Source: Hyphomicrobium sp. | Lineage (GTDB): Bacteria > Pseudomonadota > Alphaproteobacteria > Rhizobiales > Hyphomicrobiaceae | Assembly: GCA_002928515.1 (NCBI GenBank) | Contig: PERI01000003.1 | Location: 62,001-126,000 of the forward strand | Length of the DNA: 64,000 nt | Direction: 5' to 3' | Shown here: in pieces, positions 3,848 through 41,486 of the stretch | Layout: each line of letters starts with the position of its first letter | How positions within the stretch are numbered: position 1 is the stretch's first letter | Program-made: the position numbers and the translations under genes | Notes under the pieces: model-generated | What the model saw: the letters and a program-made list of their open reading frames with translations, nothing else | The model's database searches: none | Told to the model about the DNA's origin: nothing

Positions 3848-4290
3848 TCGTTCGCGTCGTCGTCATCACCGTGCGAGATCAGTTTTTTGTCGTCGCCCTG
3901 CCCGTCGTCGGGTTCGTCGGTGCGCATGTCTTTCAGCGTCTGGTCGAGTTCGGTGCCGAAATCTTTCAGCATGTCGATGGTGAAGCTGTTGATCCAGCGA
4001 TTGAACATTGGCCGCGTCAGCCAGGATGTGAAGCAGGCGACAGCGGCAGTCGCTGCCACGAGCATGCGCGCGGTGACACCTTCGAACTGTAGCCAGTGAA
4101 TGGCCCAATAGGCATCGCCGAAGCCGAGCGTGAAGAACGTCGCCAGCGCTGCCAGCCCGGTGCGATCGTTGTAAGCTTCCCATACGACCATCAGATGGAT
4201 GGCCATGTAGAACACGGCGAACACTTGCGATGCCAGCATCACACGATCGAGTATGATTTTCCGGCGCTGGTGGCGTTCGTCGAAAGACAT
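3829..4290 (-). CDS. conserved-looking membrane protein, unknown
   Basis: A 153-aa protein starting [11 protein letters not shown] at ATG 4290 (an upstream in-frame start gives an unlikely leader). Hydrophobic segments are near residues 18-38 ([19 protein letters not shown]), 48-68 and 75-90. The tail is very acidic, with aspartate clusters from about residue 125. It is convergent with queF and overlaps it by 19 bases. I recognise no domain; the layout suggests an inner-membrane protein with a charged cytoplasmic tail. Confidence 0.7.
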
Positions 4291-4423
4291 AGATCTTGTT
4301 ATGCGGACTGCTGCTGCATCGCGCAACGAACATCCGACACGATCAAAAAATTCCATTCGATACGATGCAGCGGTGCCATAGCTATTCTAGATTGCTTGAG
4401 ACTTTCGGCTCGCGCAAAATCCA

Positions 4424-4879
4424 TCACTTCAAAAAACGATGTGCAGTTTTTGGATCGGGCATCAAGCAGGTATCGCGCGTGCCAAACCATTGCAGGCGAT
4501 TGCGCTGGACCCAATCATAGATGCGGTCGCCGATAACATTCGGGACGATGCGTCCCAAGTTTCCAAGCAGGCGCCAGGGTTGTGGCATTGTTCGGGCGGC
4601 TGCGAGCGCGCCTTGCCAACGGGTGTAGGGAATGCCGTTGCTGAGGACCATGAAGGTGTCGAAGCGGTCGGCGTCCAAGTTGTAATGGCGATAGAGTGCG
4701 CGTGGCAACGGCTGTTGGATGGCTGCAAACTTCGATGCGCCTTCTGGATCGCGCGCCAGCATCCATTGTACGCCGGTGGCACAGAGCACGCACAGACCAT
4801 CGAAAATGACGAGCGGCGCGCTATCGTCGAACGATGGAACATTGGGGTCGTCGCGATAGCTGTAGGGAATGTGCGTCAC
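4424..4879 (-). CDS. DUF393 (DCC family) thiol-disulfide oxidoreductase-like protein
   Basis: The 151-aa product carries the DCC-family signature FDGLCVLC (residues about 25-32), an N-terminal strand and a CxxC-like pair resembling thioredoxin-fold proteins. DUF393 members are predicted thiol-disulfide oxidoreductases with no firm substrate. The start is GTG at 4879. It stands alone between a divergent secreted-protein gene and the convergent-side membrane protein, so the context says little. Confidence 0.8.
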   Translation of the reverse strand: MTHIPYSYRDDPNVPSFDDSAPLVIFDGLCVLCATGVQWMLARDPEGASKFAAIQQPLPRALYRHYNLDADRFDTFMVLSNGIPYTRWQGALAAARTMPQPWRLLGNLGRIVPNVIGDRIYDWVQRNRLQWFGTRDTCLMPDPKTAHRFLK

Positions 4880-7918: not shown

Positions 7919-8317
7919 ATGGCCACCCACTACGACGACACACATCACATCGTTATCTCGGATGAAGACGCTCGCGGCGGGACAACCGGGCATCATGTCC
8001 GCTATGTGCTCGGCCTCGGGCTGACCGGCATCATTGCGGCGTTCGCAGCGGTTGCGATTTATTTCGGGTACGACCGGCTGCATAGCAACGTTTCGGCGGC
8101 GCTGGCGCAGAACCCGTCCGACGTTTTGCAGACTATCGCGCCTTACGCAGGCATTGTTCTCGTCGGCGCGATTGCGGTGGGATTGCTTCTCGGCATCTGG
8201 AATATGATTTCCGGACGCAGCGAAAACGACAGTCAATCTTTCATGCGGTTTCGCGTCGTTGCGCAGTTCGCGCTGATCTGCGTAATCATGGCGTTGATGT
8301 ACGTATCAGCGGCCTAG
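7919..8317 (+). CDS. HIG1/twin-transmembrane-helix-like protein
   Basis: A 132-aa membrane protein whose C-terminal half (VGLLLGIWNMISGRSENDSQ, then FMRFRVVAQFALICVIMALM) matches the pattern of small HIG1-domain twin-transmembrane proteins in alphaproteobacteria. These relate to mitochondrial respiratory-supercomplex assembly factors. Unlike the usual short bacterial forms, it has an extra N-terminal membrane segment near residues 23-45 after a His/Asp-rich start. ATG 7919 is chosen over the 7892 alternative because AAGAAGGAA precedes it. A respiratory role is an inference from family. Confidence 0.7.
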   Translation: MATHYDDTHHIVISDEDARGGTTGHHVRYVLGLGLTGIIAAFAAVAIYFGYDRLHSNVSAALAQNPSDVLQTIAPYAGIVLVGAIAVGLLLGIWNMISGRSENDSQSFMRFRVVAQFALICVIMALMYVSAA

Positions 8318-34987: not shown

Positions 34988-35902
34988 CTATGCCGCGTCC
35001 GCTTTGGGCATTCGCAGCGGCCGAAGCCCCAACAAATGACAGATGGCGTACACGAGATCGGCGCGGTTCAACGAATAGAAGTGGAATTTCTTGATGCCCT
35101 CATCGACGAGGTCCATCACCTGCTCGGTGGCGACCGCTGCGGCGACGAGATGCGTGGTTGTCGGATCGTCGTCGAGGCCTTCGAAGCGGCGCGCGAGCCA
35201 TGACGGCACGCTAGCACCTGCGCGTTGGGCAAAGCCTGCGACTTGCTTGAAATTATGGATCGGCACGATGCCGGGCATGATCGGCACCCAAATTCCCGCT
35301 GCGCGCGCGCGTTCGAGATAGCGCAGGAAGTGCGCGTTATCGAAGCCGAATTGCGTGATGATGCGGTCGGCACCGGCATCGACCTTGGCTTTTAGATTTT
35401 CGATATCGGCATCAACCGATGCGCTTTCGGGATGCTTTTCCGGATAGCCCGCGACCGAGACTTCGAATGCGCCGATCCGTTTCAATCCGGTGACGAGTTC
35501 GGCGGCATTCGCATAGCCTCCCGGATGCGGCGCATATTTTGTACCGGGGCCTTCGGGCGGATCGCCGCGCAGGGCCACGATATGGCGAACGCCTGCATCC
35601 CAATAGGCTTTGGCGACAGCGTTCACTTCATCCTTTGTGGCGTTGACGCAGGTGAGATGCGCGGCGGGTTTCAATTCGGTTTCGCGGATCAGGCGCGTCA
35701 ATGTCGTATGCGTGCGTTCGCGCGTGGACCCACCTGCCCCGTACGTCACCGATACGAATTCAGGCCGCAACGGCGCTAAGCGCGTGATCGACGACCATAG
35801 CGTGTCTTCCATTTTTTCTGTTTTGGGTGGAAAGAATTCGAAAGAGACGACGATGTCTCCAGCACCCAGCAACTTGCTCTTGCGTTCTTTTGGCTCCGCC
35901 AT
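34988..35902 (-). CDS. metF: methylenetetrahydrofolate reductase
   Basis: MetF makes 5-methyltetrahydrofolate for methionine synthase. The 304-aa TIM barrel has SFEFFPPKTEKME, VTYGAGGSTRERTHT, ALRGDPP and FGFDNAHFLRYLER. It starts within the stop codon of the regulator gene (overlap), so the two are one transcript. The order regulator-metF-metH1-methyltransferase-metH2 puts methyl-group supply and use together. Confidence 0.96.
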   Translation of the reverse strand: MAEPKERKSKLLGAGDIVVSFEFFPPKTEKMEDTLWSSITRLAPLRPEFVSVTYGAGGSTRERTHTTLTRLIRETELKPAAHLTCVNATKDEVNAVAKAYWDAGVRHIVALRGDPPEGPGTKYAPHPGGYANAAELVTGLKRIGAFEVSVAGYPEKHPESASVDADIENLKAKVDAGADRIITQFGFDNAHFLRYLERARAAGIWVPIMPGIVPIHNFKQVAGFAQRAGASVPSWLARRFEGLDDDPTTTHLVAAAVATEQVMDLVDEGIKKFHFYSLNRADLVYAICHLLGLRPLRMPKADAA

Positions 35903-36957
35903 CAGCGCGCCTCCTCAAAATTACCAGATCCGGCAAGCGAACGCGCTTGCGGCTGGCCGATTGTTTTTCTGGTTGTATCGATGCGCTCGGCTAACCAGAG
36001 CGTCACAGTCAGCTTGTCGCCTGTCGCCGTCGATTGCGGTGACAGATCGCGGACGGACTTAGGATTGAGGCCTGCATCGCGCAGCCACGTCGTCACGCTA
36101 TCATGGGTGAAGCCCAAGCGTTCGTGCGCTTCAACTTCGCGAAGAAACTCCAACGTATGCGGCGCGAAATCGACGATCAACAAACGCCCGCCCGGAGCCA
36201 GCACGCGGGCGGCCTCGCGGATGGCAAGCGCCGGGTCCGACAGGAAATGGAGAACCTGATGCATGACGATGGCATCGGCTTGCCGGTCGGCGAGAGACAG
36301 CGCGTAAATATCGCCGTGGCGGACTTGGGCATGCGCGTGACCGCCACGCGTGAGCTTGGCGCGGGCATACGCGAGCATCGCCTGGTTGACATCAATGCCG
36401 AGCCCTCGTGCATAGCGGTCGGCGAACAGATCGAGCGTGCGGCCGGTGCCGGTGCCGAGATCGAGCAGGAATTTGAACGGTCCACTGCCGAGCGCCTCTT
36501 GCATCGCCGCTTCGACATCGTGTTCGGCGACATGAAGCGCGCGAATGCGGTCCCAGTCGGCCGCGTGGGCAATGAAAAAGGCTTGTGCGCTCGATTCCCG
36601 TTCCCGCTTCAATGCGTCGGCGCGGTCGCGGTCGCGTTTGCTTTGCACGTCTTGCGTATCGACATCTGCGATCAGGCGCAGCGCTAAGCGGCCGCCGGGT
36701 GAGCGATCCGAAATGTGGAAATAGACCCAGCTCCCTTCACGGAAGCGTTCTACGAGACCGGCTTCCGAAAGCAGTTTGAGGTGGCGGCTGATGCGCGGCT
36801 GGCTTTGGCCTAGGATGAGCGTCAGATCTTTGACGTTGAGTTCGCCAGCGCCGAGCAACACTAAAATGCGCAGGCGCGTTGGCTCGGCGGCAGCCTTAAG
36901 GGCGGTCACCAAATCATCGACAGTTAGCGCTGTTATCGGGTCTGAGCTTCGTTCCAT
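35902..36957 (-). CDS. ArsR-family regulator fused to a SAM methyltransferase
   Basis: A 351-aa two-domain protein. Residues about 8-95 form a winged helix (EPTRLRILVLLGAGELNVKD, QSQPRISRHLKLLSEAGLVE). Residues about 155-320 form a class I methyltransferase with FLLDLGTGTGRTLDLF and MHQVLHFLSDP. ArsR regulators of methionine genes (SahR) sense S-adenosylhomocysteine; the fused domain may serve as a SAM/SAH sensor rather than an enzyme. A perfect palindrome lies 12 bases upstream, so autoregulation of the operon is likely. Confidence 0.9.
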   Translation of the reverse strand: MERSSDPITALTVDDLVTALKAAAEPTRLRILVLLGAGELNVKDLTLILGQSQPRISRHLKLLSEAGLVERFREGSWVYFHISDRSPGGRLALRLIADVDTQDVQSKRDRDRADALKRERESSAQAFFIAHAADWDRIRALHVAEHDVEAAMQEALGSGPFKFLLDLGTGTGRTLDLFADRYARGLGIDVNQAMLAYARAKLTRGGHAHAQVRHGDIYALSLADRQADAIVMHQVLHFLSDPALAIREAARVLAPGGRLLIVDFAPHTLEFLREVEAHERLGFTHDSVTTWLRDAGLNPKSVRDLSPQSTATGDKLTVTLWLAERIDTTRKTIGQPQARSLAGSGNFEEAR

Positions 36958-36968
36958 GCTGCATAGAT

Positions 36969-36984
36969 ATAAAGATATCTTTAT
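36969..36984. promoter_or_regulatory. operator-like palindrome of the metF/metH operon
   Basis: ATAAAGATATCTTTAT is a perfect 16-bp inverted repeat 12 to 27 bases upstream of the regulator start codon. It has the size and symmetry of an ArsR-family operator. I recall similar AT-rich palindromes described for SahR regulons but cannot verify identity here. Confidence 0.65.
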
Positions 36985-36998
36985 GTGTCAAGTGAAAA

Positions 36999-37006
36999 CG
37001 GCGGGC
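36999..37006. repeat. target-site duplication, left copy
   Basis: CGGCGGGC immediately left of the insertion element; the identical eight bases follow its right end at 39001-39008. Confidence 0.9.
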
Positions 37007-37031
37007 GGCAATTATATACGTGCTTGACCCA
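37007..37031 (+). repeat. left terminal inverted repeat
   Basis: Starts GGCAATTATATACGTGCTTG. Compared with the reverse complement of the right end it matches at 17 of 25 positions, including the first two bases and the last eleven (TGCTTGACCCA). Confidence 0.88.
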
Positions 37032-37052
37032 AACCTCCAAATCGCCTATATT
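37024..37052 (+). promoter_or_regulatory. transposase promoter partly in the left end
   Basis: TTGACC at 37024-37029, a 17-base spacer and TATATT at 37047-37052 form a good sigma-70 promoter about 24 bases before the transposase start codon. The -35 is the conserved part of the inverted repeat. Confidence 0.7.
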
Positions 37053-37075
37053 CATTGGAGTTGGAGGGATTGAGC

Positions 37076-38005
37076 ATGAAACGTCCGATCACAAGCCTGT
37101 ACGAATTTTTCGAGGTGTTTCCAGACGAGCAGTCTGTGATCGACCACCTTCGTGCAATTCGCTGGCGCGACGGTGCTTACTGCCCGCATTGCGCTTCCAA
37201 GCGCGTGATGCACTTCTCGGACAAGAAAACCCACAAGTGCCACGATTGCCGTCAGCGGTTCTCCATCAAAGTCGGCACAATTTTCGAGGATACCAAGCTG
37301 CCGCTTCGCAAATGGTTTGCAGCTATTTGGCTGATTACGAGCCACAAAAAAGGTATCGCCAGCACGCAGTTGGCGAAAGACCTTAAAATCACGCAGAAAT
37401 CGGCTTGGTTCGTTCTTCATCGTTTGCGTTACGCCGCGAAAACAAAGTCATTTCAACGCCCTTTATCTGGGGCCGTTGAGCTAGATGAAACGCTGCTCGG
37501 CGGCAAAGAAAGTAATAAGCACAAGAATAAACGTCGGAAAGGTATTAGCGGTACGGCTGGCAAAACTATCGTTTTCGGTATGTTGGAGCGCGACGGAGAA
37601 GTTCGCGCGAAAACAATAAAGAAGTTGGACGGCAAAACGGTTCGCGGCGCGGTATTCGACAATGTCGCGGATCGCACGGTTTTGCTGACTGACGAACACG
37701 TCACCTACAAGGGCCTAGACTACGGCCCTTACACGCGGTTTTCGGTCAATCATGGCCAAGGCGAATATGGTCGGGGGCCAGTGCATATCAACGGAATTGA
37801 AGGCGTGTGGTCACTTTTCAAACGCCAAATATACGGCATTCATCATCACATTTCCGCAAAGCATACCGACGCCTATCTGGGAGAAATGTGCTACAGATAC
37901 AGCCGTCGTAATTTAGAGGAATACCAGCGCGTCGATGATCTTCTGACACAAATCGAAGGCCGATTGACTTACAAGGCGCTAACTCATGACCAAGAAAAAA
38001 TATGA
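37076..38005 (+). CDS. IS1595-family transposase
   Basis: A 309-aa transposase. A zinc ribbon has C36-x2-C39 and C55-x2-C58, followed by a helix-turn-helix-like region. The catalytic core holds D137 (LDETLLGG), D206 (LTDEHVTY) and the N239/E242 region (HINGIEGVWSLFKR), the ISXO2-like DDE/DDN signature. GGAGGGATTGAGC precedes ATG 37076; frames starting earlier lack a binding site. No frameshift is seen, so it may be active. Confidence 0.95.
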   Translation: MKRPITSLYEFFEVFPDEQSVIDHLRAIRWRDGAYCPHCASKRVMHFSDKKTHKCHDCRQRFSIKVGTIFEDTKLPLRKWFAAIWLITSHKKGIASTQLAKDLKITQKSAWFVLHRLRYAAKTKSFQRPLSGAVELDETLLGGKESNKHKNKRRKGISGTAGKTIVFGMLERDGEVRAKTIKKLDGKTVRGAVFDNVADRTVLLTDEHVTYKGLDYGPYTRFSVNHGQGEYGRGPVHINGIEGVWSLFKRQIYGIHHHISAKHTDAYLGEMCYRYSRRNLEEYQRVDDLLTQIEGRLTYKALTHDQEKI

Positions 38006-38147
38006 AAAGCCATTTCACATAGAGATGTCATTTGACGAAGCAAGTGAACGGCTCGCGAATGTTAAGAAAAACGAAATAGCGGATTCACCAAGAATTAAAG
38101 CTCGTAACCCTAAACAGAAGCCTAAGAAGTCGGACGATGAAAGGTGA
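37986..38147 (+). CDS. 53-residue passenger frame of the IS1595 element
   Basis: The frame starts at an ATG inside the last 20 bases of the transposase gene, in another frame, and reads TKKKYEKPFHIEMSFDEASE and on to KPKKSDDER-stop. It is highly charged (Lys/Glu/Asp) and has a partner-protein look. Overlap with the transposase suggests translational coupling. I do not know its role; it could help transposition or be non-functional. Confidence 0.6.
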   Translation: MTKKKYEKPFHIEMSFDEASERLANVKKNEIADSPRIKARNPKQKPKKSDDER

Positions 38148-38153
38148 GATTGA

Positions 38154-38927
38154 TCAACGCCCGCGTCTAGGAGCCGTCATCGGGGTAGTAGCTGTTGGCG
38201 CTGTTCCAGCTTGCCCAGGTAGCTCGGCGGCAGTTTCTTTTGGGCGCTGCTCTGCCTCAATTTGCGCTTTTTTGGCTCGGGCTTCTTCCATGCTTCTTAC
38301 GAATGCCAAAACACTGTGGAACTCAGAAACATCTTGCGCGCGCAATAAGCCGGGGAGTGTTTCGCCAGTTGCCCGATTGGGGACATAAGCCGATATGCAG
38401 CCGATGAAATGTATCTTTTTTTCGGAAGGTGAGTGATGAAAAACCGGACCACCGCTAACGCCGTTGATGGCCACGCCATCGATCAGGTAAGCATGAGCAC
38501 CGTCCAGTCGGGCGCTGACTTTGCCAGAAAAGAAGCAGAGATTATTGGGAAGGATGCCGGGATAGCCAAGCCATCCGACTTCGACTCCCAAGCCGCAGGG
38601 CTGCTCCATTGGGAGCAATGCTATGGGGCTCTCTGGCAGTTTAAGCTCGCGTTTATGGCAAAGCACAATCGCTGAATCCGTATTCTTATCTACAAATATT
38701 ACGCGTCCTTCGGTCGAATAAAATACTGAAGTTCCGGACGCATCATGCGTAATCCGGATTGGCTGTTCCCATTCATCTGCGTGAGCGACAACATGGGCGG
38801 CGGTGGCAATGCCGCACCAATCCCCGTTGTTGCTGTAGAATGCCAAAAATCCGGTGCCATGACCCGATGGGGTTGCTATTTTGACGACGTGCGGGCTAAC
38901 AGCGGCGATTTGCTCATCCCAATTCAT
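38154..38927 (-). CDS. trypsin-like serine protease carried by the IS1595 element
   Basis: A 257-aa S1-type peptidase with H45 (ATAAHVVAHA), D84 (KNTDSAIVL) and S158 (NGVSGGPVF), a full triad. GHGTGF opens the fold and the C-terminal 40 residues are Glu/Ala/Pro/Thr-rich. It has no signal peptide, so a cytoplasmic protease or stress factor is more likely than a secreted one. ATG 38927 is inside the element, whereas the longer frame to 39014 would cross its right end. It is convergent with the transposase. Confidence 0.85.
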   Translation of the reverse strand: MNWDEQIAAVSPHVVKIATPSGHGTGFLAFYSNNGDWCGIATAAHVVAHADEWEQPIRITHDASGTSVFYSTEGRVIFVDKNTDSAIVLCHKRELKLPESPIALLPMEQPCGLGVEVGWLGYPGILPNNLCFFSGKVSARLDGAHAYLIDGVAINGVSGGPVFHHSPSEKKIHFIGCISAYVPNRATGETLPGLLRAQDVSEFHSVLAFVRSMEEARAKKAQIEAEQRPKETAAELPGQAGTAPTATTPMTAPRRGR

Positions 38928-38975
38928 GTGCCCGCACTCCTGAAAAAGAGTGACCGCTATCTGAGTCGCTTGCGG

Positions 38976-39000
38976 TGGGTCAAGCAGATATGTAGGCTCC
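38976..39000 (-). repeat. right terminal inverted repeat
   Basis: The plus strand reads TGGGTCAAGCAGATATGTAG then GCTCC, the counterpart of the left end. On the minus strand its TTGACC could supply a -35 for the protease gene, though no clear -10 follows. Confidence 0.88.
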
Positions 39001-39008
39001 CGGCGGGC
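39001..39008. repeat. target-site duplication, right copy
   Basis: CGGCGGGC, identical to the eight bases preceding the left end. Confidence 0.9.
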
Positions 39009-39368
39009 GGCCACAAGTCGGTTTCAGAAACTCCCGGATGGTCGCAATCGTACAGCACTTAGCGAAGCGTTAGCGCGGGCTTGGGTAGTGTGCGGTCACA
39101 AAGTTGGGCTTTCGACCGTCTGCTTCGGGTTCAAAATGTCGGCTGCGTTGTCGGCAATTTTACCCGACAAGGCGTGACGCGAAGCCGTGTAGATGATTGG
39201 CAGGTCGAGGCGCAGACGGCACGCAAAGGGCGCGGGTATTGTTTTGACTATATTTCGGTGTCATGAGAGGTCCATCAGCCTGTTGCGACGGGCGGCCTTT
39301 TGAGGCGGAATCAAAGTTGCACAGTCCCAAGCTGGGGTGTGCGAAGCGAAGCGAGGATGGGGCTTGGT
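39009..39368. other. 360-base stretch without a clear gene
   Basis: This is the sequence that used to continue the metF-operon upstream region before the element inserted, plus the upstream region of the MlaC-like gene. I see no coding sequence, RNA gene or terminator that I would defend. Confidence 0.55.
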
Positions 39369-39965
39369 ATGAGCAGTGGTTGTGTGGCGGTTCGTCGGAC
39401 CGTAACGAGGTATGGAATTTTCTCGCTGCTGGTTGCAATGGTGAGCACGCTCGTCGTTTCGCCGGCATCGGCTGAAGCTCCGTCGGCTTACATGCAGCGC
39501 GTGATGAACGAACTGGTCGCGGCACAACGGGCCAATTCGATTTCCGCGTTCGGTAATGTTTTGCGCAAGCACATGGATGTGCCGTCCGTGGGCATCGCTG
39601 CACTCGGGCCCCATGCCAAAGCGCTGCCGAAATCAGAACGTCCGGCTTACTTTAGCGCGGTGATCAACTTCATTGCTAAGTACGCTGCGAAAGAAGCGCC
39701 CAAATATCCTGTGACGTCTGCGACTGTCACCGGGCAAAGTGCCGAGACTGCTGGCGGCGCATCGGTCGATACACGAATAACTGTGGCCGGCAGCCCCTAC
39801 GATGTGCGCTGGCGTTTGGTGCGCTCAGGACAAAGCTACAAAGTGCGTGACGCACAAGTGCTTGGCTTTTGGGTTTCGACTACGCTCGACAATTTGTTCC
39901 AAGACTACATCAACAATAACGGCAACAATCCGCGCGCGCTTGTGGTTGCTTTAAACCGCTACTGA
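39369..39965 (+). CDS. MlaC/toluene-tolerance family phospholipid-binding protein
   Basis: A 198-aa exported protein with a signal peptide (about residues 1-35, ending VVSPASAEA) and the MlaC pattern YMQRVMNELVAAQRANSI, LGPHAKALPKSERPAYFSAV, VTGQSAET and VRDAQVLGFWVSTTL. MlaC carries phospholipid between membranes. GAGGATGGGG before ATG 39369 supports this start; 39357 is also possible. No Mla transporter genes are adjacent. A terminator follows. Confidence 0.75.
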   Translation: MSSGCVAVRRTVTRYGIFSLLVAMVSTLVVSPASAEAPSAYMQRVMNELVAAQRANSISAFGNVLRKHMDVPSVGIAALGPHAKALPKSERPAYFSAVINFIAKYAAKEAPKYPVTSATVTGQSAETAGGASVDTRITVAGSPYDVRWRLVRSGQSYKVRDAQVLGFWVSTTLDNLFQDYINNNGNNPRALVVALNRY

Positions 39966-40303: not shown

Positions 40304-40840
40304 ATGAAGAGCGTCAACATCGTTCGACTGTTAGGCGTCACAAGTGCGCTTGCATCTATTCCCGCCATGCTGGCTGTCGCAGCCCACGCGCAGACGACAC
40401 CCACGGCTCCCACATCGCCACCTCCTGGCAATGCGGTCGAAGTACCACCAGAAATTCCGGCACCAGGTAGCCCATCTGCAGCACCTGAAATGACGCCAGT
40501 ACAGCCGGATGCGACCGCACCGTCTATGCCTGATACATCGGCTCCTGCGCCAACAGCTACGGCTCCGGCACCCGTCGGTCCGACAGCTTCTGAAGTTGCA
40601 GTCGGCTCAGATGTGTTCGGTTCGGATGGGCAAAAGCTCGGTGAAATCGAAGGCGTGAAAGCCGGTTCGGATGGAGCGATCAGCGAAGTCCATATGAAAA
40701 CCGGCGGTTTCTTCGGCTTCTTTGAGAAAACCGTCGTTGTTCCAGGCAGCAAGGTGACGAAGGGCGGTCAAACCGTTCAAGTCGCGATGACGTCCGATGA
40801 AGCCGATGAGCTTCCGGTGCTGACTGAAAGCAACAGCTAA
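40304..40840 (+). CDS. secreted PRC-barrel-like protein, paralogue A
   Basis: A 178-aa exported protein: signal peptide (about 1-29, ending AAHAQ), a Pro/Thr/Ala-rich linker (30-95) and a C-terminal PRC-barrel-like domain (about 98-175: VGSDVFGSDGQKLGEIEGVK, VVVPGSKVTKGG). Such domains occur in periplasmic proteins of Hyphomicrobiales. A paralogue with the same architecture follows 160 bases later. AAAGGAG precedes ATG 40304. Confidence 0.75.
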   Translation: MKSVNIVRLLGVTSALASIPAMLAVAAHAQTTPTAPTSPPPGNAVEVPPEIPAPGSPSAAPEMTPVQPDATAPSMPDTSAPAPTATAPAPVGPTASEVAVGSDVFGSDGQKLGEIEGVKAGSDGAISEVHMKTGGFFGFFEKTVVVPGSKVTKGGQTVQVAMTSDEADELPVLTESNS

Positions 40841-40890: not shown

Positions 40891-40927
40891 GCGGGTCGCA
40901 TGTCATGATGCGGCCCGCTTTGTCTTG
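40891..40927 (+). terminator. probable terminator
   Basis: GCGGGTCGCAT (40891-40901) pairs with ATGCGGCCCGC (40908-40918), one G-U pair, followed by TTTGTCTTG. It separates the two PRC-barrel-like genes, which therefore probably have separate promoters. Confidence 0.6.
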
Positions 40928-41003
40928 CCCACGTCTTGTCACACGCGAACCGGTTCCTACATGTCGAACAAGCGCGATATCGCGACAACAATCGGAGACG
41001 ACC

Positions 41004-41486
41004 ATGATTTCATCGAAGTCCATCGTAACTGCGAGTAGCGCTGCTGCACTCGCAATGTTTTTATCATTTGGCGCACACGCTGCTGAACAGCCGGTCGAAG
41101 CTCAAGCGCCTGTTGCCGTCGAGGCTGCACCTGAGGCCACGACTGCACCTGTAGAAGCGGCACCACCTGCTGAGACGCCTGCCGCGGAAACCGCAGCCGC
41201 CCCCGAAGCACCTGTTGCTGAAACGGAAATCAGTGCCAAGGATTTAGCTATCGGCAGCGCCGTGTTTGGCAACGACGGCGAGAAGATCGGTGAAGTCAAT
41301 CGCGTTACAGCCAGCGCATCGGGCACAGTCACTGAAATTCAAGTGACGACAGGTGGCAAGGCTGGTCTTGGTGCGGACGTGGTTGCCATTTCCGGCGATA
41401 AAATTACGGCCGTTTCCGATGGCGTGAAACTGTCGTTGAGTTCGCAAGAAGCCAAAAGCTTGCCTGTTATCGACGGCAACGGCTAA
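41004..41486 (+). CDS. secreted PRC-barrel-like protein, paralogue B
   Basis: A 160-aa exported protein with a signal peptide (1-26, ending AHAAE), a Pro/Ala/Glu-rich linker (27-80) and the same C-terminal domain (about 82-158: IGSAVFGNDGEKIGEVNRVT, VVAISGDKITAV). The linker is more acidic than in paralogue A. GGAGACGACC precedes ATG 41004. Tandem duplication is likely. Function unknown. Confidence 0.75.
   Translation: MISSKSIVTASSAAALAMFLSFGAHAAEQPVEAQAPVAVEAAPEATTAPVEAAPPAETPAAETAAAPEAPVAETEISAKDLAIGSAVFGNDGEKIGEVNRVTASASGTVTEIQVTTGGKAGLGADVVAISGDKITAVSDGVKLSLSSQEAKSLPVIDGNG

Follow-up and report, generated by a model that had tools for sequence, protein, structure and literature searches.

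The element at positions 37007–39000 of the window (the whole stretch of DNA analysed here, 64,000 nucleotides of a Hyphomicrobium sp. contig) is an intact member of the IS1595 family, a unit of 1994 bp. It probably represents a Hyphomicrobiaceae clade of transporter insertion sequences (ISs) that insert selectively 20–21 bp upstream of SahR-type operators and have a cargo slot behind the transposase. Targeting of the operator by this clade is strongly supported. The features of the element and its left flank are as follows.

34988–35902, minus strand: metF, methylenetetrahydrofolate reductase, downstream of the regulator gene (PF02219, 5.9e-93; TIGR00676 above cut-off)
35902–36957, minus strand: predicted SahR-type regulator, ArsR-family HTH plus methyltransferase domain (PF01022 and PF08241; NF033788 above cut-off)
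36967–36986, no strand: SahR-type operator, 20-bp palindrome ATATAAAGATATCTTTATGT, the putative landing mark, just outside the element
36999–37006, no strand: target duplication, left copy, CGGCGGGC
37007–37030, plus strand: left inverted repeat (IRL), GGCAATTATATACGTGCTTGACCC
37076–38005, plus strand: IS1595-family transposase, 309 aa (PF12762, PF12760 and NF033547 above cut-offs)
37986–38147, plus strand: companion module of 53 aa with the motif KYEKPxxIxMxFDEA (alignment, profile search)
38154–38927, minus strand: cargo, cytoplasm-type trypsin-like (Trypsin_2, S1) protease, 257 aa (PF13365, triad)
38977–39000, minus strand: right inverted repeat (IRR), GGAGCCTACATATCTGCTTGACCC, the reverse complement of the bases ending at 39000
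39001–39008, no strand: target duplication, right copy, CGGCGGGC, an exact 8-bp match to the left copy

GG ends are typical of IS1595, and the window element shows both GG terminal inverted repeats and an 8-bp duplication. The account in PMC8101967 gives the 8-bp duplication as a trait of the family and GG ends as a feature of the related Merlin elements. The 19-bp core arms (37013–37031 and 38976–38994) are 84% complementary. The transposase matches PF12762 (DDE_Tnp_IS1595) at 9.9e-38 and NF033547 with 189.4 bits against a cut-off of 75, and, like most subgroups of the family, it carries an N-terminal zinc ribbon (PF12760, 36.2 bits versus a cut-off of 25.4). Only the transposase, the 53-aa frame and the protease were accepted as coding candidates within the unit. 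The first-pass annotation had described an intact IS1595-type unit with inverted ends, an exact 8-bp duplication, a whole transposase, an overlapping 53-codon frame and a complete-triad protease, and this description holds throughout. A promoter-like TTGACC-17-TATATT lies upstream of the transposase at 37024–37052, its -35-like TTGACC falling within IRL; promoter-like sites in the region number 3, where 2.2 are expected. The reverse complement of IRL contains an outward-facing TATAAT, yet the promoter scan lists no promoter there. One terminator was observed in the region versus 3.2 expected. The element was matched once in its own genome (2.92 Mb) and is therefore present as a single copy.

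In PMC4239095 the SahR operator is described as a 20-bp palindrome upstream of sahR, metF or ahcY, with metF as a core SahR target. The palindrome beside the left end fits this description, and its binding by the neighbouring regulator is predicted. No library model named SahR is among the regulator matches listed; the position of the gene next to metF suggests that its product is of the SahR type. The operator pattern, ATATAAA-NANNTNN-TTATRT, is found in 99 of 103 family genomes, with none in any of them for the reversed-pattern control. The centre differs between loci, SATATS at sahR versus CAAGTC at ahcY. At ≤1 mismatch, the six genomes that carry close relatives of the element hold 1–2 operator positions each (reversed control 0). 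The window's own genome (G000) has one such match, the ahcY-type second operator of its relatives being either missing or diverged. On the other side of the element, a host frame of ~220 codons, which in several relatives comes after the sahR operator and before a gene we take to be mlaC-like, was not seen at 39009–39426, directly behind the right end. Further along, two neighbouring frames of similar secreted type (40304–40840 and 40905–41486) share a common C-terminal region and by eye have the look of a tandem duplication.

Searching 103 family genomes with the transposase at E ≤1e-60 gave matches in seven: the window's own genome, five genomes (G010, G017, G132, G028 and G129) at 72–86% identity, and G004 at 40%. 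G010 is a metagenome-assembled genome of the same genus as the window, Hyphomicrobium sp. RGIG5714. Among 397 genomes of the order, a set that overlaps the family sample, there are seven further elements with transposases 58–65% identical, and 385 genomes of the class added one more, G538, at 57%. A search of named genomes for the clade transposase, which may omit the window's own genome, returned only G010 (JAFWGI010000008.1) and G132 (JABFRJ010000188.1). In a tblastn search of IMG/VR the transposase found no match, and among plasmids it matched 5 records at 1e-60, the best at 59.7% (Methylocystis).

In all six close elements the left end faces a SahR-type operator that fits the pattern with 0 mismatches. 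The gap between operator and element is 20, 20, 21, 21, 21 and 20 bp in the window, G010, G017, G132, G028 and G129, respectively. The landing locus is sahR-metF for the window, G010, G132 and G129, and ahcY for G017 and G028; the window regulator and metF and the ahcY genes of G017 and G028 were tested with profiles, the other target genes being identified by eye. Whereas the operator occurs in 99 of the 103 family genomes, a close element occurs in only 6. The pattern was read from the flanks of the six elements before testing, and the operator is independently conserved. The chance of a random insertion at such a place is ~2 in a million (2 operators, 2 sides and 2 positions in ~3.5 Mb), and because of these odds the spacing seen in six of six elements is not a chance result, even with the pattern first read from these flanks.

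None of the nine more distant elements has a SahR-type operator in its left flank, where the best match carries 4–6 mismatches. Six of the seven order-level relatives are bounded by exact duplications, and their left flanks match the operator with 5–6 mismatches at best; the corresponding values for G158, G004 and G538, in the 200 bp before the transposase (left flank only), are 5, 6 and 4. G158 is without a credible duplication and is absent from the comparison of flanks and GC in bounded elements, and G004, with its 40% identical transposase, falls outside the operator clade. A palindrome with 2 mismatches, 57 bp off in the right flank of G066, was taken as a chance occurrence in AT-rich DNA. 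The number of G or C bases among the eight of the duplication is 1, 1, 1, 1, 1 and 3 in the six bounded sisters versus 8, 4, 6, 5, 6 and 4 in the operator clade, as raw counts without correction for host base composition and with the value for G132 taken from the left side only. The 40-bp flanks of G010 and G132 are also rather AT-rich. It seems that, in place of the AT-rich targets preferred by its sisters, the operator clade now follows a positional cue. Only four columns of the transposase hold a residue that all six clade members share and none of the seven sisters has.

These observations suggest that the operator guides the landing of the element. Most likely, the transposase synapse would dock at the operator complex, by contact with SahR of the host on its operator or by recognising the palindrome directly, and strand transfer would then occur at a distance of ~13–21 bp, on the side away from the gene. 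The element would thus end up upstream of the operator-promoter unit, which stays joined. As the regulator gene and its operator remain together the host would be spared, and as the site is conserved across the family it would form a low-cost landing pad. The cargo slot would comprise the small module that overlaps the transposase gene, either on its own or joined to the cargo; the cargo, in the window the protease, would decide the value of the element to the host. We see an even prospect that the fuller reading is right, namely that this is a one-transposase IS with programmed landing, via SahR-bound operator or operator DNA, and a site-specific carrier whose defence-type cargo is exchanged, proteases being one of the payload classes.

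Direct recognition of the operator palindrome by the transposase, with no role for host SahR, is a serious if tentative alternative. The motif is common to six different hosts, and the clade transposase both possesses a zinc ribbon and differs from the sister group at the four fixed columns. However, the sahR and ahcY operators differ in their centres, and the parts that they share are those a common regulator needs. The present data fit docking on a protein and reading of the DNA alike.

The cargo of the related elements is varied. The frame downstream of the transposase gene in G010, G017 and G132 consists of the module followed by RhuM (PF13310 at 3.9e-60, 1.3e-58 and 4.8e-52, respectively), and the RhuM fusions of these three and of G266 match the PADLOC model PDC-S05 at 5.1e-88 to 3.1e-105. 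We take PDC in these model names to mean phage-defence candidate. The fusion in G129 joins the module to DinD (NF008573, 3.1e-103; PADLOC PDC-S13, 3.6e-103), and a dCTP-deaminase-like gene (PF22769, 1.5e-28) stands behind it at L021 7623–8192. Among the more distant elements, G538 has a DinD-type fusion (PDC-S13, 2.2e-78), and the fusion in G089 matches the PADLOC BstA model at 8.9e-118. The G089 element also holds a capP-like metallopeptidase (1.7e-28). At this locus (L117, 2587–5622, reverse orientation) the BstA-type fusion and the capP/IrrE-like metallopeptidase have the appearance of a defence-like pair in a 3-kb transposon, and the frame beside the element is presumably DGQHR-like. In G028 a free-standing module is followed by a proteasome-like hydrolase on the minus strand (PF00227, 25.3 bits versus 22.4); its longest frame overruns the end of the element, and an ATG at 8142 and a GTG at 8073 (L020) lie inside.

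Strong PADLOC matches thus occur in 7 of 14 elements (G010, G017, G132, G129, G266, G538 and G089). The tested cargo of six others (G028, G245, G284, G348, G066 and G158) matches no PADLOC model. For the genes tested in G245, G284, G348 and G158, the last with an undefined right end, and for one of the two in G066, neither Pfam nor PADLOC gives a match; Pfam places the second G066 gene in SocA_Panacea, and PADLOC has no match for it. The second genes of G010, G017 and G129 are likewise without a PADLOC match, that of G010 resembling DUF2441 under its cut-off. The G348 element (L115, 4601 bp) contains a nested second IS1595-type transposase, 35% identical, at 4027–4830. All ten other elements with both ends found carry further frames or a fused module in the cargo slot. 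From these profile matches, we read the slot behind the transposase as one that often holds genes of putative phage-defence type.

The 53-codon frame, which overlaps the 3' end of the transposase gene by 20 bp, matches no Pfam or NCBIfam family at E 1. It is free-standing in the window element and in G028, and in other relatives forms the N-terminal part of fusions with RhuM, DinD or BstA-type proteins. A profile built from 11 sequences and searched in 297 genomes of the order matches 11 of them. Ten are known carriers of the same transposase group, and the eleventh, G329, has the broken remains of a transposase of that group. Because the genomes matched by the profile are the carriers of the transposase group, the module is a companion of the IS and not of the protease. 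Going beyond the first-pass annotation, the frame is, judged by alignment and profile, a conserved module of the IS group.

The cargo protease of the window element scores 35.2 bits against PF13365 (Trypsin_2; cut-off 27.6) and 16.4 against PF00089 (Trypsin), under the cut-off of 20.6. Its start is taken as the ATG at 38927, inside the element; the longest frame opens with a GTG at 39014, outside it. The His, Asp and Ser positions of the triad are kept in a 37% identical homologue from G787. The fold predicted from the single sequence (pLDDT 39.4) is too poor for use, and a sequence search of the PDB gave four virus capsid chains at E 0.068–0.093 that were judged to be chance. Weak PADLOC matches to RT-Protease_XI and LmuA (5.5e-08 and 4.6e-07) cover the protease parts only, and the G787 homologue has no PADLOC match at 0.001. 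The protease is present in 1 of 102 family genomes, the window's own (102 of the 103, the omitted one being unnamed). It is again confined to its own genome among 100 relatives, in a search without G129 and G132. In the class it is found in 2 of 385 genomes, the second being G787, from another family. No relative was found by tblastn among IMG/VR contigs, and no match among plasmids. The sole homologue found (L121 3728–4453, G787:C118) lies directly behind dnaJ. By eye, a second frame at this locus carries a dnaJ-like 3' piece, RelE-type and antitoxin-like frames follow, and no IS1595 frame is seen on the 5956-bp contig; the locus resembles a small island at the end of dnaJ, without IS1595.

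The element has the arrangement of a transporter IS, in that its ends and its duplication enclose the protease. Because both ends and the exact duplication surround the gene, it can move with the transposase. The first-pass annotation had looked to copies elsewhere to show that cargo and transposase travel together, and had held that related elements always lacking the protease would speak against its reading. No second copy of the combination was seen in the window's own genome or in the 102 family genomes. The relatives do lack the protease as far as seen, the G132 element being cut by the contig end, but the gene is nevertheless part of the unit. In the genomes searched, these ends enclose the protease nowhere else; the cargo is therefore exchangeable. 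The relatives without it also suggest that the protease is dispensable for transposition. Most likely it is a fitness gene of phage-defence type, a putative proteolytic effector; this is the best guess because RhuM, DinD and BstA types occupy the same slot in sister elements, although the protease's own PADLOC matches are weak.

It is unlikely that the protease gene belonged to the host and was caught between two ends by accident, or that it is a neutral passenger of no use to element or host. Such an origin would agree with the finding of no other element that carries it (1 of 102 family genomes; 2 of 385 in the class, the second without IS1595 by eye). However, the gene sits in the slot that the proteasome-like hydrolase occupies in G028, and in the same orientation, the protease frame and triad are intact, and the ten other two-ended elements fill the same slot with frames or a fused module. 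It is quite unlikely that the protease serves the element, for instance by cutting the transposase, the module or a regulator to tune transposition. Both clade elements with a stand-alone module, the window and G028, do carry peptidase-like cargo, but no peptidase family is found in the other clade elements (G132 being incomplete), and the G787 homologue is by eye outside any IS1595.

The insertions appear to be largely independent. The duplications are exact and mutually different in the window (CGGCGGGC), G017 (GAGCGAGC), G028 (GCGGCAAC) and G129 (AGTAGGCT). That of G010 is partly decayed (GTTGGACA and GTTGATCG), and the right end of G132 is off its contig. The second operator of G017, G028, G010 and G129 is empty. 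At 20 operator loci including these four, no element end and no conserved sequence at the insertion position were seen by eye; the script left the target gene unnamed in six of the 20 (L085, L092, L096, L098, L099 and L100). In a transposase tree that included G004 and the seven sisters and was built without G538 and G329, the six close transposases form one clade (support 98/99). Since most forks inside this clade are open, the tree is compatible with one origin per locus. The window and G010, with transposases 86% identical, the same locus and sister positions in the tree, may descend from a single insertion. From the number of hosts and loci, at least five insertion events are likely. It is very improbable that no target was selected and that one or two ancient insertions at sahR and ahcY were passed on by vertical descent and have since disappeared from most species: the pairing of the window with G010 at one locus, the decay of the G010 duplication and the failure of the tree to sort sahR from ahcY copies would fit, but four carriers have exact, different duplications, most family genomes and the second operator of four carriers lack a close element, and the identical spacing of 20–21 bp at two loci still needs explaining.

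Transporter ISs of the IS1595 family with passenger genes were reportedly described by Siguier in 2009. The first-pass annotation was right that such members are already known, and PMC11891212 reports a transcription regulator as the passenger of one of them, the transporter IS ISNha5. The window element resembles ISNha5-type transporters in its IS1595 transposase, its GG ends, its 8-bp duplication and passengers presumably not needed for transposition. By description, its clade differs from ISNha5 in inserting at a fixed distance from an operator, in its protease, proteasome-like, RhuM, DinD and BstA-type cargo, and in its conserved small module. BstA is described as a prophage abortive-infection protein (PMC8585504). 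The fusion protein of the G089 element resembles it by the PADLOC match given above; however, that version follows the IS module in a fusion carried by an IS1595 element, and is not the cargo of the window. The trypsin-like proteins of Lamassu (LmuA) and RT-protease systems share with the window protease the weakly scoring parts of their models, but the window element has no further large gene for an SMC, reverse transcriptase or sensor partner.

In Tn7-type transposition a conserved sequence is recognised, and the element inserts a set distance from it, clear of the gene and in one orientation. The operator clade is similar in all these respects, with one close copy found per carrier genome. 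Unlike Tn7, it has a single DDE transposase without targeting subunits of the TnsC/TnsD type, and its landing mark is an operator rather than a coding end; the window element thus falls outside the Tn7-like class with its TnsABC(D) multi-protein transposase. A literature search, open-access with few subscription papers, found no report of an operator-targeted IS1595 or of this cargo set. Passenger-carrying IS1595 elements are thus known, and the operator-guided insertion and this set of cargo are apparently new, no report of them having been found.

IS elements with a single transposase are usually loose in their choice of target. A clade found at one type of operator with a spacing that varies by 1 bp would make guided transposition, whether by protein or by DNA, open to test in a small system, and the operator site may act as a natural safe landing pad. 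IS1595 elements would be carriers of single-gene phage-defence candidates of the RhuM, DinD and BstA types, and stand-alone trypsin-like and proteasome-like proteases may join these candidates.
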